Source: an uncultured Clostridia bacterium (lineage in GTDB: Bacteria; Bacillota; Clostridia; Oscillospirales; Ruminococcaceae). From it: a DNA stretch of 62,259 nt. Below are positions 57,927 through 61,826 of this stretch, in pieces; the stretch's first letter is position 1; every line of letters starts with the position of its first letter. The notes below the pieces were generated by a model. That model worked only from the letters and a program-made list of their open reading frames with translations. It was not told where the DNA came from and searched no databases. The position numbers were made by a program, and so were the translations under genes. The stretch spans positions 1 to 62,259 of the forward strand of contig CANQCK010000009.1 of NCBI GenBank assembly GCA_947589185.1. The letters run 5' to 3'.

Positions 57927-58026
57927 AAGTGTGATGTAACAGCTCAAAAGAGTTATTACATAGCTTATGCCCGGCAATACAGCACTGCGGGCATATAATC
58001 ACAAATAACAATAAGGAGAATTTCAC

Positions 58027-58266
58027 ATGGAGATTTATACAACTAAATCGTCTGACATATGTGCAAAAGGCTTTTGCGAGGGCTGTCCGCAGCCTGAAGG
58101 AAAGTTTCCTGAAAAAACGCCGATAGCAATGGCATATGTTCCGTTTCAGGAATGGGAAAAAACATATGATGCTCACATTGCACTATGCAGAGGTACAATA
58201 TTCCCGTCACTTGACAAACCATTCATAGGAGAGGAGGCTGTTTCAAATGGATGCAGAAAAAAGTAA
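58027..58266 (+). CDS. cotJA: Spore coat protein CotJA
   Basis: A 79-residue protein whose C-terminal half (MAYVPFQEWEKTYDAHIALC, then RGTIFPSLDKPF) matches the CotJA family. CotJA is part of the inner spore coat with CotJB and the manganese-catalase-like CotJC. The N-terminal part adds a Cys-rich stretch. AAGGAGAATTTCAC precedes the ATG. The gene overlaps cotJB by 20 bases. Confidence 0.92.
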   Translation: MEIYTTKSSDICAKGFCEGCPQPEGKFPEKTPIAMAYVPFQEWEKTYDAHIALCRGTIFPSLDKPFIGEEAVSNGCRKK

Positions 58267-58504
58267 GCTGTTAAAGTTAGTAAGAATGCACGGTTTCGCA
58301 GTAATTGAGGCACAGCTATTTCTTGACAGCCACCCGACCTGCAAAGAAGCTCTGGAATACTTTAGAAAGCATCAAAAAGAATATGAAGAAGCAGTTGCCG
58401 AATATGAAAGCAAATATGCACCGATAACGGTAAGCGGAGTAAACAGCGATGATGAATGGACATGGGCGACAAAACCATGGCCCTGGGAAAGGAGTGAGAA
58501 TTAA
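58247..58504 (+). CDS. cotJB: Spore coat protein CotJB
   Basis: An 85-residue protein of the CotJB family. HGFAVIEAQLFLDSHPTCKE (residues 15-34), the EALEYFRKHQ block that overlaps its end, and the C-terminal WTWATKPWPWE are characteristic. GGAGGAGGCTG-type sequence is in the end of cotJA. Its stop overlaps the next ATG in TAATG, the usual coupling to cotJC. Confidence 0.93.
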   Translation: MDAEKSKLLKLVRMHGFAVIEAQLFLDSHPTCKEALEYFRKHQKEYEEAVAEYESKYAPITVSGVNSDDEWTWATKPWPWERSEN

Positions 58505-58605
58505 TGTGGCAATACAAGAAAAAGTTAGAATATCCGGTAAACATAAAGAATCCTAATCCTGCTCTGGCAAAGGTTATCATCACGCAGTTTGGCGGTCGTG
58601 ATTGA
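58504..58605 (+). pseudogene. cotJC: Truncated cotJC (first 33 codons)
   Basis: The ATG overlaps the cotJB stop and the first residues (MWQYKKKLEYPVNIKNPN...) are those of CotJC, a manganese-catalase-like coat protein of about 190 residues. The frame stops at TGA (58603-58605) directly after the conserved GGRD, where CotJC normally continues with GELAASLRYLSQRY. The catalase domain is absent downstream; a relE fragment begins 17 bases later. The remnant is therefore the scar of an insertion or deletion. Confidence 0.88.
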
Positions 58606-58609
58606 ATTT

Positions 58610-58740
58610 GTAATTGTAATTATGATATATAATTTGAAGTTTACTGCTCACGCTTATAGAGATATACATATATCAAAAAAACTCTATGCTATTTATTTAA
58701 AAGCAGTAATGGGCAAGGAATGGATATTCCTTGCCTCTTA
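58610..58740 (+). pseudogene. Remnant of a YefM/RelE-type toxin locus
   Basis: From 58622 a 47-base stretch matches the start of the intact toxin gene (61509-61555) with a single mismatch. It is preceded by the antitoxin's last codons (NYDI, stop). Then come a 15-base gap, a short matched TATATCAAAAAA-CTCTATGCT part and a jump to the toxin-downstream terminator (GGCAAGGAA/TTCCTTGCC at 58712-58735; copy at 61902-61927). It is a copy of the same locus with large internal deletions and cannot code for a toxin. Confidence 0.85.
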
Positions 58741-58883
58741 TTATTGTTAAAAAGCTCCCACTATGAAACGTTCAAAGAGAATTCTTAGCGTTGCTATGTT
58801 GCATTAGAGCATCAGTTTAATGTGTGATATTCCATAATGCTAATTCAATTTGCGTGACATAAGCAATATGTTACTTTAAATTC
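58741..58883. other. Short intergenic stretch without recognised content
   Basis: Between the relE remnant and the end of the MerR gene. AT-rich, no ORF with a ribosome binding site, no repeat recognised. Confidence 0.5.
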
Positions 58884-59972
58884 TCACTTTCTCACCATAA
58901 CATAATAACCGCTTTCCCTGCCGCCGAAACGATAATCACCGCTTTTCCATTCAATGATGAGGTATTCCTTACCGCTAAACTTCTTTATTTCATATGCACA
59001 GGCATTGCTGTTCCACTTACGCAGCCAGTAGCCTTTTGTCCATGTGTGCTTGTCATCGCCGCTTATTACCTCATCACCATAGATTGCAGTAACATGACCT
59101 CCTTCCATGAATTCAATCTCTTTGAAATATAGGTCAGCGGTGTAATTCCAAGCTCCCTTCGGCGGATTTTTATATGGCACAAAGTCTTTCTTTTTTAGTT
59201 CAATAGGATCAAAGGTGCAAAACGCCTTCCATCTGCCAAGAACCTTGTCATCAGGTATAAAAGGCTTGTTTATGTCGTCCTTTTTGGAAATTTGATCTTT
59301 TGTGTAGCGAACGCTGTCAAGTTTACGCAGGGCTACTGCCGTAATCTCGCCAGATTCTGAGTAGTCCTGTGATTTGAAATCGACTATCATATACAGATCG
59401 TCGCCTCGCTGTTCAAGACGGTAGTCGTTCGCAAAACGACTCTCACCGTTATTAAAAAACAGCTTGCCCTTAGTCCAGCCAAAGCACCAGTAATACTCGC
59501 CGTTCGGTAGAAAATACAGATGCCTGTTACCGTCACCCAGAAGCAGAGTCGGGTAATTATCACTGTCACCACATTCGCCTAACACCAGCCATTTGCCGAT
59601 GACCTGCTCATCGTTTTCAAACGGCATATCCACATCTTCTATAAGGGGCTTAAATTTCTGTTCCATAATAATACCTCCATTTTGTATCAAATTTTCGAGA
59701 TCACGGAGCTGCCGTTCAAGCGCTGCCTTGCGTGCGAAAAATATGTCCTCAGTATGTTCATTTGAGTATAGCATAGTGCGTATTTCCGCCAAAGTAAATC
59801 CGACTGCTTTAAGCTCAGCAATTCGTTCAAACACGGCTATCTGCGACTTGTCATAATAGCGGTATTCGGTAAAGCGGTCAATGTACAGCGGCTTGAGAAG
59901 CCCGATTTTGTCGTAATGCCGTAAAACAGAAATATTCGTTTTACAGGCTTTGGCAAAGTCTCCTATTTTCAT
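58884..59972 (-). CDS. MerR-family regulator with duplicated C-terminal beta-rich sensor domain
   Basis: A 362-residue regulator. Residues 1-70 are a MerR winged HTH (MKIGDFAKACKTNISVLRHY, ITERR-like FTEYRYYDKSQ), then a dimer helix to about 115. The rest is a tandem of two similar beta-rich units of about 110 residues (from WLVLGECGDSDN and from WKAFCTFDPIEL), each resembling lipocalin-like ligand-binding folds. So a small-molecule-sensing activator is likely; the ligand is unknown. The start at 59972 is set by GGGAG upstream and family alignment, discarding a 60-codon upstream extension that reads through the promoter. Confidence 0.85.
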   Translation of the reverse strand: MKIGDFAKACKTNISVLRHYDKIGLLKPLYIDRFTEYRYYDKSQIAVFERIAELKAVGFTLAEIRTMLYSNEHTEDIFFARKAALERQLRDLENLIQNGGIIMEQKFKPLIEDVDMPFENDEQVIGKWLVLGECGDSDNYPTLLLGDGNRHLYFLPNGEYYWCFGWTKGKLFFNNGESRFANDYRLEQRGDDLYMIVDFKSQDYSESGEITAVALRKLDSVRYTKDQISKKDDINKPFIPDDKVLGRWKAFCTFDPIELKKKDFVPYKNPPKGAWNYTADLYFKEIEFMEGGHVTAIYGDEVISGDDKHTWTKGYWLRKWNSNACAYEIKKFSGKEYLIIEWKSGDYRFGGRESGYYVMVRK

Positions 59973-59995
59973 GATCTCAACTCCCATAATATATG

Positions 59996-60007
59996 TAAGG
60001 TACCTTA
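59996..60007. repeat. Perfect 12-bp palindrome in the MerR leader
   Basis: TAAGGTACCTTA lies 24 bases upstream of the ATG, between the promoter and the start. Confidence 0.5.
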
Positions 60008-60012
60008 TGTGT

Positions 60013-60043
60013 ATATTAAACCTGATGTTAGGTTTAGAGTCAA
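60013..60043 (-). promoter_or_regulatory. MerR-type promoter with 19-base spacer and central dyad
   Basis: On the minus strand TTGACT, 19 bases, TATAAT-like TAATAT. The spacer carries AAACCT-AACATC-AGGTTT (60018-60035), a perfect 6-bp dyad. A 19-base spacer with an operator inside is the hallmark of promoters remodelled by MerR proteins, so autoregulation by the gene it drives is very likely. Confidence 0.85.
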
Positions 60044-60259
60044 TAGATTTATAAGAATTTTGCAAAATTTTTTCTATTTTATTATAGTGCATATCGAAAA
60101 AAGTTAACCCCCTTGTAAAAAGACAAATACTCCAAAAACTATTGCCTTGCATTCCGGTCTTAAAAATTTTGTGTATAATAAAAGCACATTGACATAATCC
60201 AATGTGCTAAAACTCATGTTATATCATTCAAGTTTATTAAAACCGCCCCCAATAAGTAA

Positions 60260-61252: not shown

Positions 61253-61519
61253 ATGCCAAGAATTATTCCGATAAAGGATTTAAAAAACACTGGTACTATT
61301 TCAGAGATGTGCCATAGTATTAACGAGCCTATATTTATTACTAAGAACGGCTACAATGATATGGTTGTAATGTCTAATCAGGCTTATGACGAGCTTATGG
61401 AAAAAATCAAATTATATCAGCTTTTAGCAGAAAGTGAAAAGGATTATGAGGACGGAAATCTTGTCGACGGCGATACAGTCTTTGCTAAATTAAAGGAAAA
61501 ATACAATTATGATATATAA
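61253..61519 (+). CDS. Antitoxin of the Phd/YefM family
   Basis: An 88-residue protein beginning MPRIIPIKDLKNTGTISEMC, with FITKNGYNDMVVMSNQAYDE, the standard DNA-binding N-terminus of Phd/YefM antitoxins. The C-terminus (EDGNLVDGDTVFAKLKEKYN) binds the toxin. The start at 61253 has GGAG upstream; a longer frame from 61166 lies over the promoter. It overlaps the toxin gene by 11 bases. Confidence 0.9.
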   Translation: MPRIIPIKDLKNTGTISEMCHSINEPIFITKNGYNDMVVMSNQAYDELMEKIKLYQLLAESEKDYEDGNLVDGDTVFAKLKEKYNYDI

Positions 61520-61826
61520 TTTGAAGTTTACTGCTCACGCTTATAGGGATATACAGAGCATTTATGAATATATATCAAAAAACCTCTATGCTCCGATGTC
61601 TGCAAATCGTATTATGAAGATGATACAAGACTCTATTGAAAACCTTAAATCTTTTCCGTATTCTGCTCCGGCTGTTAAAGATGACTTTTTATCAAGAAAA
61701 GGATTTAGAAAACTTATTACAGAAGATTATATCGTGCTTTATAAAGTTGATGAAAATAACAAATCTGTTATTATCCACCGAATTGTAAACGGAAAAACCG
61801 ATTATAAAAATCTATTTCATAATTAG
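61509..61826 (+). CDS. RelE/ParE-family toxin
   Basis: A 105-residue protein of the RelE/ParE superfamily. The N-terminal strand-helix LKFTAHAYRDIQSIYEYISKNL and the C-terminal FRKLITEDYIVLYKVDENNK are characteristic; RelE members cut ribosome-bound mRNA, ParE members act on gyrase, and the type cannot be told from sequence. The gene overlaps the antitoxin, is followed by a perfect terminator and is the intact relative of the remnant at 58.6 kb. Confidence 0.9.
   Translation: MIYNLKFTAHAYRDIQSIYEYISKNLYAPMSANRIMKMIQDSIENLKSFPYSAPAVKDDFLSRKGFRKLITEDYIVLYKVDENNKSVIIHRIVNGKTDYKNLFHN

Follow-up and report, generated by a model that had tools for sequence, protein, structure and literature searches.

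The cotJ operon and the break in cotJC

We examined the cotJ spore coat operon near the right end of a 62,259-nucleotide stretch of DNA from an uncultured bacterium of the Ruminococcaceae (Clostridia), in which the gene cotJC is interrupted by foreign DNA. This stretch, hereafter the window, is the entire contig C9 of the genome G000, which comprises 1.9 Mb in 39 contigs. As an earlier note on the bare sequence had stated, cotJA and cotJB are intact and overlapping, and both match their Pfam families (Table 1). The CotJA protein is 100% identical in the sister species G012 and at locus L071; the identity of CotJB to that of G000 is 88 to 99% in the nine closest genomes of the genus and 53 to 56% in the rest of the genus. 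cotJC starts at 58504 through a TAATG overlap, and its reading frame closes with a TGA at 58603-58605. The 33 codons between them match positions 1 to 33 of the 284 positions of the Mn_catalase profile PF05067 (3.6e-7). Comparison with G012 and other relatives places the departure from cotJC after the GG of codon 31. The start and the stop after GGRD thus stand as the earlier note described them, but the 33 residues do not all belong to CotJC, since R32 and D33 are encoded by element DNA. The break sits inside the sporulation gene cotJC itself, directly after intact cotJA and cotJB.

Table 1. Features around the cotJC break in the window (window positions) and on contigs C15 and C23 of the same genome
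Feature	Position	Strand	Basis
cotJA, spore coat associated protein JA, intact, 79 amino acids (aa)	58027..58266	+	Pfam CotJA, 4e-20
cotJB, intact, 85 aa	58247..58504	+	Pfam CotJB, 9.5e-29
cotJC first piece: CotJC residues 1-31, element-encoded R32 and D33, element TGA	58504..58605	+	PF05067; relatives including G012
Left attachment-site core GCAGTTTGGCGGTC, same as the core at the other half on C15; predicted crossover GG at 58594-58595	58584..58597	+	14-base in-register core
Right arm of attP (...AATTTGTAATT...), imperfect mirror of the left arm (...TATAACAAATG...) on C15	58598..58619	+	arm comparison
Left arm of the site-1 element, up to the contig end	58596..62259	.	window = whole of contig C9
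Decayed partial relE/parE toxin copy with terminator, within the left arm of the element	58618..58740	+	alignment to intact toxin
MerR-family regulator open reading frame (ORF), 422 aa, with a MerR domain (residues 61-129); on the contig-end side of the cotJC break	58884..60152	-	Pfam MerR_1, 6.2e-15
Phd/YefM-type antitoxin	61253..61519	+	Pfam PhdYeFM_antitox, 2.3e-8
RelE/ParE-family toxin, intact counterpart of the decayed copy	61509..61826	+	ParE_toxin, 4.7e-13; TIGR02385 RelE_StbE, 9e-11; phrog_2455, 3.5e-23
cotJC piece 2, residues 31-62	C15, about 355-240	-	PF05067
cotJC piece 3, residues 62-198	C23, 1-414	+	PF05067
Right arm of the site-1 element with recombinase	C15, from 368 upward (L043)		recombinase gene L043:357-1784, minus strand

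The remaining cotJC codons and their rejoining in silico

We searched G000 with the PF05067 profile and found cotJC in three pieces, which match profile positions 1-33 on C9, 22-65 on C15, and 63-196 on C23. The GG at which piece 3 starts is also the very beginning of contig C23, and the last 200 bases of C9 overlap no other contig of the genome. The rest of the gene, which the earlier note suggested looking for just beyond the right edge of the window, is not known to lie there; it is on C15 and C23, with a second element between pieces 2 and 3. Since the codons missing from the window are present on these contigs, cotJC is split, and the piece in the window is not a truncation that entails loss, which is what had been proposed. 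We refer to the break between pieces 1 and 2 as site 1 and to the break between pieces 2 and 3 as site 2.

When the three pieces are joined at GG, they give an in-frame CotJC of 198 aa, in which 175 of 176 residues are identical to those of G012, whose cotJC is unbroken at sites 1 and 2 and split at a third site. An automatic join at site 2 of G000 gave R instead of T at residue 63, whereas the GG join does not. Across 15 genomes rejoined in silico, CotJC remained open through the joins in 12; two of these (G335 and G222) end at or near site 3, and one (G289) carries a long C-terminal extension. As for the other three, the automatic choice of core was wrong in G337 and G215, where part of the protein was replaced, and the join in G148 gave only 66 aa.

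A single full-length manganese catalase match was detected in G000, on contig C1, and we considered it as a replacement for cotJC. We rejected this candidate: it is a paralogue in which only 67 of 186 residues are identical to CotJC, and in G010 and G013 a relative of it is found alongside an unbroken cotJC. As this was the sole full-length manganese catalase found, we detected no intact cotJC elsewhere in the genome of the kind that the earlier note had named as evidence against its reading.

Attachment sites and serine recombinases

The two halves of the site-1 break share the same core, and the arms flanking it mirror each other imperfectly (Table 1). The reconstructed attachment site of the element (attP) forms a palindrome that scores best when centered on the GG at 58594-58595, with 13 of 20 positions compared to 11 at the next best center. 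A palindrome around a central dinucleotide is the layout of serine-integrase attP sites. We scored 12 attP in this way, nine of them reconstructed (seven from site 1 in the genus and two from site 2) and three picked by eye from viral contigs. Palindromes centered on GG scored 11 to 19 of 20, and the GG center beat every other center within 9 bases in 11 of the 12, with a tie in G006.

The gene whose 3' end directly adjoins piece 2 on C15 encodes a 475-aa large serine recombinase with the Resolvase (PF00239), Recombinase (PF07508), and zinc ribbon (PF13408) domains and a match to the phrog_95 integrase family (1.8e-111). On the other side of piece 2 lies the C-terminal part of a second recombinase, which is cut by the contig end. 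In total, the loci that we fetched contained 40 serine-recombinase ORFs; for the tree, we attributed 39 to whichever site is broken at their locus and excluded one located past a break. Site-1 recombinases formed one clade (17 rows, support 100/100), as did those of a fourth site (3 rows, 100/100), while site-2 recombinases fell into two separate clades (7 rows, 100/100, and 12 rows, 98/98). No site-3 recombinase was identified.

Integrases related to the site-1 recombinase also occur in IMG/VR, where 10 of the best 80 of 135 viral contigs hold fragments of cotJC and some others carry an intact palindromic attP with a GGCGGTC-like core. We inspected the attachment regions of 27 chosen from those best 80, three of which entered the palindrome test. 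A search of viral contigs for the attP pattern gave a single match, L292, which we judged unrelated (bases 1-2400).

Recurrence of split cotJC in the genus, the family, and isolates

Among 15 genomes of the genus, cotJC is in one piece in four, in one piece with a decayed extra 3' copy in one, and split in 10. The combinations of broken sites vary: sites 1 and 2 (G000); sites 1, 2, and 3 (G011); sites 1 and 3 (G009, G006, and G002); site 2 alone (G004); and site 3 alone (G012). G014 is broken at sites 1, 2, and 3, though the search did not recover its short piece 2; in G003 and G008, we found piece 1 and a piece 2 that extends as far as site 2. A C-terminal piece beyond site 3 was found in five of the six genomes that need one (G002, G011, G012, G014, and G006, but not G009), and G014 has it on the same strand of the same contig, 26.6 kb downstream. 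All ten genomes grouped with G000 by CotJB, G000 included, have a split cotJC.

The family includes Ruminococcus albus KH2T6 and Anaerotruncus colihominis JM4-15, as shown by match coordinates that coincide (G163 with G340, and G213 with G333), and is probably the Ruminococcaceae of GTDB. We obtained a PF05067 match in 220 of its 297 genomes, and in at least 75 of the 297 cotJC is split at the same few places. This count combines two sets. We picked 69 genomes by eye among those of the family without a strong full-length match (matches being listed down to about 2e-49) and searched them again; 68 carry pieces broken at site 1, 2, or 4, including 17 broken at two sites. To these we added G000, G003, G004, G014, G019, G027, and G033, which the PF05067 search found to be split and which are outside the 69. 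G003 and G033 likewise lack a strong full-length match but had not been picked; five of the split genomes (G000, G004, G014, G019, and G027) also have a full-length paralogue and could not enter that set. G093, with one weak match (8.5e-4) and no clear cotJC break, was left out of the counts. With site windows that were set after viewing the list, pieces start internally at site 1, 2, or 4 in 73 of 77 cases and end internally at one of these sites in 72 of 77; ten further rows, such as weak matches of the 12-85 type in longer frames, were left out of these piece counts.

Where neighboring pieces share a contig, they mostly lie in direct order on one strand (26 of 29 pairs, with two pairs swapped and one inverted). 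Adding one further inverted pair (G019) and 10 direct pairs, some from outside the family (G004, G049, G059 twice, G335 twice, G337, G338, G014, and G027), brings the direct pairs to 36 of 40. A scan of genome contigs with CotJB gave 526 loci; in the best 80, cotJC is cut in at least 20, at site 1 (12), site 2 (6), or site 4 (2), and five gave no cotJC match. Four of the 20 cut loci (L072-L075) are the genus genomes G003, G011, G009, and G004 again.

Split and intact genes are found within the same named species. On a single contig of Ruminococcus flavefaciens SAb67, three pieces follow one another in order at distances of 33 and 35 kb, with the last of them ending at site 3, and cotJC is intact in R. 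flavefaciens YL228; likewise, cotJC is split in Anaerotruncus colihominis JM4-15 and intact in DSM 17241. In Agathobaculum butyriciproducens DSM 100391 the gene is split at site 4 with the pieces 29.5 kb apart, and in Sinanaerobacter chloroacetimidivorans BAD-6 it is split at site 1 by 3.6 kb. Isolates bear on the idea that the pieces are chimeric contig ends produced by assembly or binning, which would fit the fragmented state of G000, where two of the three pieces lie no more than 370 bases from a contig end, and the many relatives that are metagenome assemblies. However, the same breaks occur inside long isolate contigs (G335, G337, and G338) and in single-contig genomes (G289 and G141), and a serine recombinase lies beside a break in all five. 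We therefore regard such an artifact as scarcely credible.

Some arrangements depart from direct order. In G141, a single 2.69-Mb contig (C1; L198 and L199), the halves are 675 kb apart and in swapped order; a recombinase lies against piece 2, and a TetR-type chromosomal gene follows about 160 bases beyond. The pieces in G152 are also swapped, at a distance of 11.4 kb, and its piece 1 is directly followed by a gene of the sigma-70 family (regions 2 and 4; L176:2748-3756) that by eye reads as sigK. On G116 C83 (L177) and G019 C23, the pieces lie on opposite strands of one contig, such that inversion, and not excision, would rejoin them.

Break sites and conserved motifs

Sites 1, 2, 4, and 3 lie at or beside the CotJC motifs GGPDGE (residues 30-35), GTEELAH (62-68), AAEQKAR (134-140), and VHFQRFGE (168-175), respectively, which we take to be metal-ligand motifs. 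The intact CotJC of G013 aligns to the manganese catalase 1jku (2e-16), and this alignment pairs up GE35, GTEE-AH, and the histidine of the last motif. Site 1 falls in the GG codons before E35, and site 2 falls at GG/TEE before E65 and H68. In our reading, the recombinases chose the most constrained DNA of cotJC.

Selection on the separated pieces

We measured selection on a 110-codon 3' region of cotJC in eight genomes (G000, G002, G004, G006, G009, G011, G012, and G014); in all but G012, this region is cut off from its promoter and start codon. The ratio of nonsynonymous to synonymous substitution rates (dN/dS) was 0.000 to 0.028 over all 28 pairs. G000 and G006 differ by 28 synonymous and 0 nonsynonymous changes, and G011 and G009 differ by 26 and 0. 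As a control for decay, we used the redundant orphan 3' copy in G001, which compared to the intact gene of the same genome gave a dN/dS of 0.55 and has a frameshift. This second copy lies on C5 (L051, about 1834-2183), about 2.4 kb downstream of the intact cotJC, and starts at a site-2 junction.

Given this strong purifying selection on the orphan pieces, they are therefore still needed as protein. The coat protein, which the earlier note took to be removed, is probably retained, with the downstream pieces intact and in frame. These data also bear on plain lysogeny, that is, cotJC as a favored attB of temperate phages or other elements, whose insertion inactivates the gene and leaves remnants that would decay. 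Several observations are consistent with it: phage tail genes follow the site-1 break in G006 and G014 (PhageMin_Tail, 4.6e-17 in G014), viral contigs with related integrases hold the cotJC fragments described above, and the recombinases turn over faster than host genes. However, the dN/dS of the orphan pieces is far from that of the redundant G001 copy, and because all ten genomes grouped by CotJB are split, plain inactivation hardly explains the pattern, as it would require very recent hits in every lineage. We consider plain lysogeny unlikely.

Proposed re-assembly of cotJC in the mother cell

We think it likely that cotJC is a three-piece split gene in which two large-serine-recombinase elements work as gene-intervening elements of the skin type, excised in the sporulating mother cell. 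This reading builds on what we observed directly, namely that the gene is split, that its halves share a core, that they rejoin exactly and in frame in silico, that a recombinase gene sits at the junction, that isolates show the same, and that the orphan pieces are under purifying selection. Each element would have its recombinase gene at one end, against an attachment site, and cotJC would be in pieces in vegetative cells. The cotJ operon is expressed in the mother cell during sporulation; there, attL and attR would be recombined at the GG by the recombinase together with a directionality factor, a step that would restore an intact cotJC for the spore coat, and the forespore would keep the element for the next generation. 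The simplest account is mother-cell DNA re-assembly, as for skin and SPbeta.

A candidate directionality factor is an 81-aa ORF that is divergent from, and beside, the site-1 recombinase gene and has relatives in G002, G003, G008, and G009. CATA-type -10 boxes lie 34 to 38 bases before six of the seven site-1 recombinases of the genus. Such boxes are also enriched more widely (10 of 40 recombinases versus 22 of 326, p 0.0009), although these counts include homologous promoters and are not independent; the K-type CATANNNTA alone is not enriched (4 of 40 versus 15 of 326, p 0.14). Judged by what we take to be the sigma-E/K consensus, a sigma-E/K promoter reading of the recombinases is only suggestive, with a -35 that is not convincing. 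G000 itself has two matches to the sigma-K family (7.3e-83 and 1.5e-75), both under the curated sigma-K cut-off.

As a sporulation gene, cotJC should not be required by vegetative cells. This counts, as do the CATA-type motifs before the site-1 recombinases (the wider enrichment coming partly from homologous promoters), against excision without a sporulation signal, whether stochastic or by prophage induction, that would leave an intact gene in a fraction of cells, as in active lysogeny or phase variation. Such excision would account for C23 starting exactly at the GG crossover of element 2, as it would if the sample contained both forms of the gene, intact and split, and there is a precedent in the yin element in yabG, for which both forms are seen in one culture (passages of PMC10747680). 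Overall, we find excision of this kind quite improbable.

Several points weigh against developmental excision in the mother cell. Excision, mother-cell timing, and the directionality factor are features that we infer from sequence rather than observe. The 81-aa ORF matches no Pfam or PHROG family and was found in five of the seven genus genomes with a fetched site-1 recombinase. We did not find in the G000 assembly the portion of the second recombinase that precedes about residue 467 of its relative in G003, nor the remainder of element 2. The C15 flank carries ordinary chromosomal genes from about 4.6 kb past the break (among them thiI, 5.1e-68), and by eye it has no phage structural genes beyond the recombinase; either the element is eroded or the chromosome is rearranged. 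The two swapped pairs and the one inverted pair among the 29 same-contig pairs are unlike the outcome of simple excision. In close pairs, site-1 recombinases diverge more than their hosts (between G000 and G006, synonymous divergence, dS, is 1.37 for the recombinase versus 0.31 for cotJB), so elements are exchanged and some insertions may be young. If so, purifying selection could partly predate insertion, and dN/dS is weakened as a dating argument. Lastly, Clostridioides difficile without two CotJC-type proteins has reduced catalase activity and no marked coat defect (passages of PMC11222575); thus, selection for re-assembly of cotJC need not be strong.

A broader proposal, which we offer tentatively and regard as doubtful in its full extent, is that cotJC is routinely assembled from pieces during development across the family. 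There would be four docking sites at ligand motifs, used in varying combinations by different recombinase clades. As the mother cell leaves no descendants, a large distance between pieces, a swapped order, or an inverted piece could be tolerated, and the gene would in such cases (G141, G152, G116, and G019) be restored through inversion or through fission of the mother-cell chromosome into two circles. Chromosomal genes lie near the site-1 recombinase in some genomes (rpoB in G008 and prmA in G009); either large chromosome segments lie between the halves or rearrangements parted the halves, and a dead-end mother cell could tolerate both. If true, developmental assembly of cotJC would be a bacterial parallel to scrambled genes.

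Comparison with known intervening elements

For the published systems, we draw on passages of the cited papers. The known targets of intervening elements named there are sigK, spsM, spoVFB, spoVR, gerE, and yabG (PMC4191935, PMC10747680, PMC6957869). Like the cotJC elements, skin in sigK of Bacillus subtilis and C. difficile lies inside a mother-cell sporulation gene, has a large serine recombinase, and allows the gene to be rejoined; the directionality factor of B. subtilis skin is the 64-aa Skr (PMC6957869). In contrast to skin, the target here is a coat catalase gene rather than a sigma factor gene, up to two or three different elements sit at different sites of one 600-base gene, and excision is deduced from sequence. 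SPbeta in spsM of B. subtilis is an active prophage that serves as an intervening element and is removed in sporulation (PMC4191935). The site-1 elements of G006 and G014 resemble it in their tail genes, whereas the cotJC system involves another gene, other hosts, and several independent elements. The gin element in gerE of B. cereus ATCC 10987 is described as not prophage-like (PMC5595907), and by eye some small cotJC elements likewise contain hardly more than a recombinase gene. In C. botulinum, the yin element of yabG is prophage-like, lies in a mother-cell gene, and is described as unique to one strain (PMC10747680). Unlike cotJC, gerE and yabG each have one element in one gene. Two more elements named in PMC4191935, vfbin in spoVFB and vrin in spoVR, differ from ours in that they interrupt other sporulation genes in Bacilli hosts.

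The nearest precedent is phi027 of C. difficile R20291, whose attR is directly upstream of the CotJC-like manganese catalase gene CDR20291_1465 (cotG); phi027 excises spontaneously, and curing it altered sporulation (PMC11222575, PMC12122855). By description, which is the basis of our comparison, cotG (678 bp) is downstream of attR and not split, and the passages of these two papers report no re-assembly role. In the open-access literature, judged mostly from listings and with subscription papers mostly outside its scope, we found no report of cotJC as a split gene.

If developmental re-assembly is true, DNA rearrangement in sporulation would not be a matter of few single cases, as it would affect one gene in no fewer than a quarter of the genomes sampled from a single family. 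The family would then offer a natural experiment on phages in developmental genes, with one target, four sites, several recombinase clades, and both intact and split strains within the same named species. For annotators, coat genes labeled "truncated" in gut bacteria may be functional split genes. The several recombinase clades with defined palindromic attachment sites could also be useful genetic tools.

The left arm of the element and the toxin-antitoxin locus

Inside the left arm, a relE scar begins about 12 bases past the cotJC stop codon. As the earlier note had reported, 46 of 47 of its bases agree with the intact toxin, in a stretch near its start, and it ends in a copy of the same terminator; our alignment of the two copies adds internal deletions of 15 and 290 bases. 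The terminal hairpin of the scar, GGCAAGGAAT...ATTCCTTGCC (about 58712-58735), matches the terminator of the intact locus. We searched G000 with positions 58590-58760 and obtained 11 matches besides the query itself; the three stronger than E 0.08 all lie in the toxin-antitoxin (TA) locus at 61.5-61.9 kb, which is therefore the sole other copy above chance level in the genome. The antitoxin and toxin genes of this locus overlap and form a type II RelE/ParE-Phd/YefM operon.

The position of the scar, with the same terminator, so close to the stop codon led to the proposal that a TA-bearing segment entered cotJC, decayed there, and destroyed the gene. The arrival of foreign DNA at this point stands, as does the view of this end of the window as a site of gain and loss; TA as the agent does not. 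We detected neither scar nor toxin in the six site-1-broken relatives with a left arm of at least 4 kb (G002, G006, G008, G009, G011, and G014); in G003, the left arm covers 16 bases past the break. Because the same break point recurs in these six genomes, we read the scar as decay just inside the element and not as the cause of the break, which is instead marked by a serine recombinase gene and mirrored attachment-site arms. Given also that the remaining cotJC codons exist and are conserved, destruction of the gene by a TA segment is very improbable.

The MerR-family ORF between the scar and the TA locus probably has an internal true start, and it may have come with the element as cargo or be a chromosomal gene that was displaced. 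In the left arm in the window and on C15, the one phage-type gene seen was a regulator, and no other prophage-like content was observed.

Additional observations

Some cotJC-splitting elements carry genes related to oxidative stress. The 3.2-kb site-1 element of G059 contains an iron/manganese superoxide dismutase gene (L045:6864-7649, minus strand; Sod_Fe_C, 8.9e-42), and the 3.3-kb site-2 element of G295 (L175:4279-5558) encodes a peroxiredoxin of the AhpC/TSA family (7e-44) together with the peroxide-stress protein YaaA (2.2e-75), making it the second case of antioxidant cargo in an element that splits this catalase gene.

Upstream of cotJA, an inverted repeat, TTATGCCC...GGGCATAA, is present at window positions 57930-58010 and in relatives, with apparent compensatory changes across the clade. 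We considered its GGGCATA/TATGCCC stem as the promoter and set that aside, since on inspection by eye the stem belongs to the repeat and shares its compensatory changes.

G000 has two more serine recombinases, on C29 (L211:3240-4862) and C17 (L210:4944-6530). After the one on C29 comes a gene for an M23 peptidase (2e-22) that by eye reads as SpoIIQ-like, and this may be another sporulation locus with an element. At L049:4977-7181 (minus strand) in G049, a 734-aa serine recombinase is fused to a DNA alkylation repair domain (PF08713, 2.6e-14).
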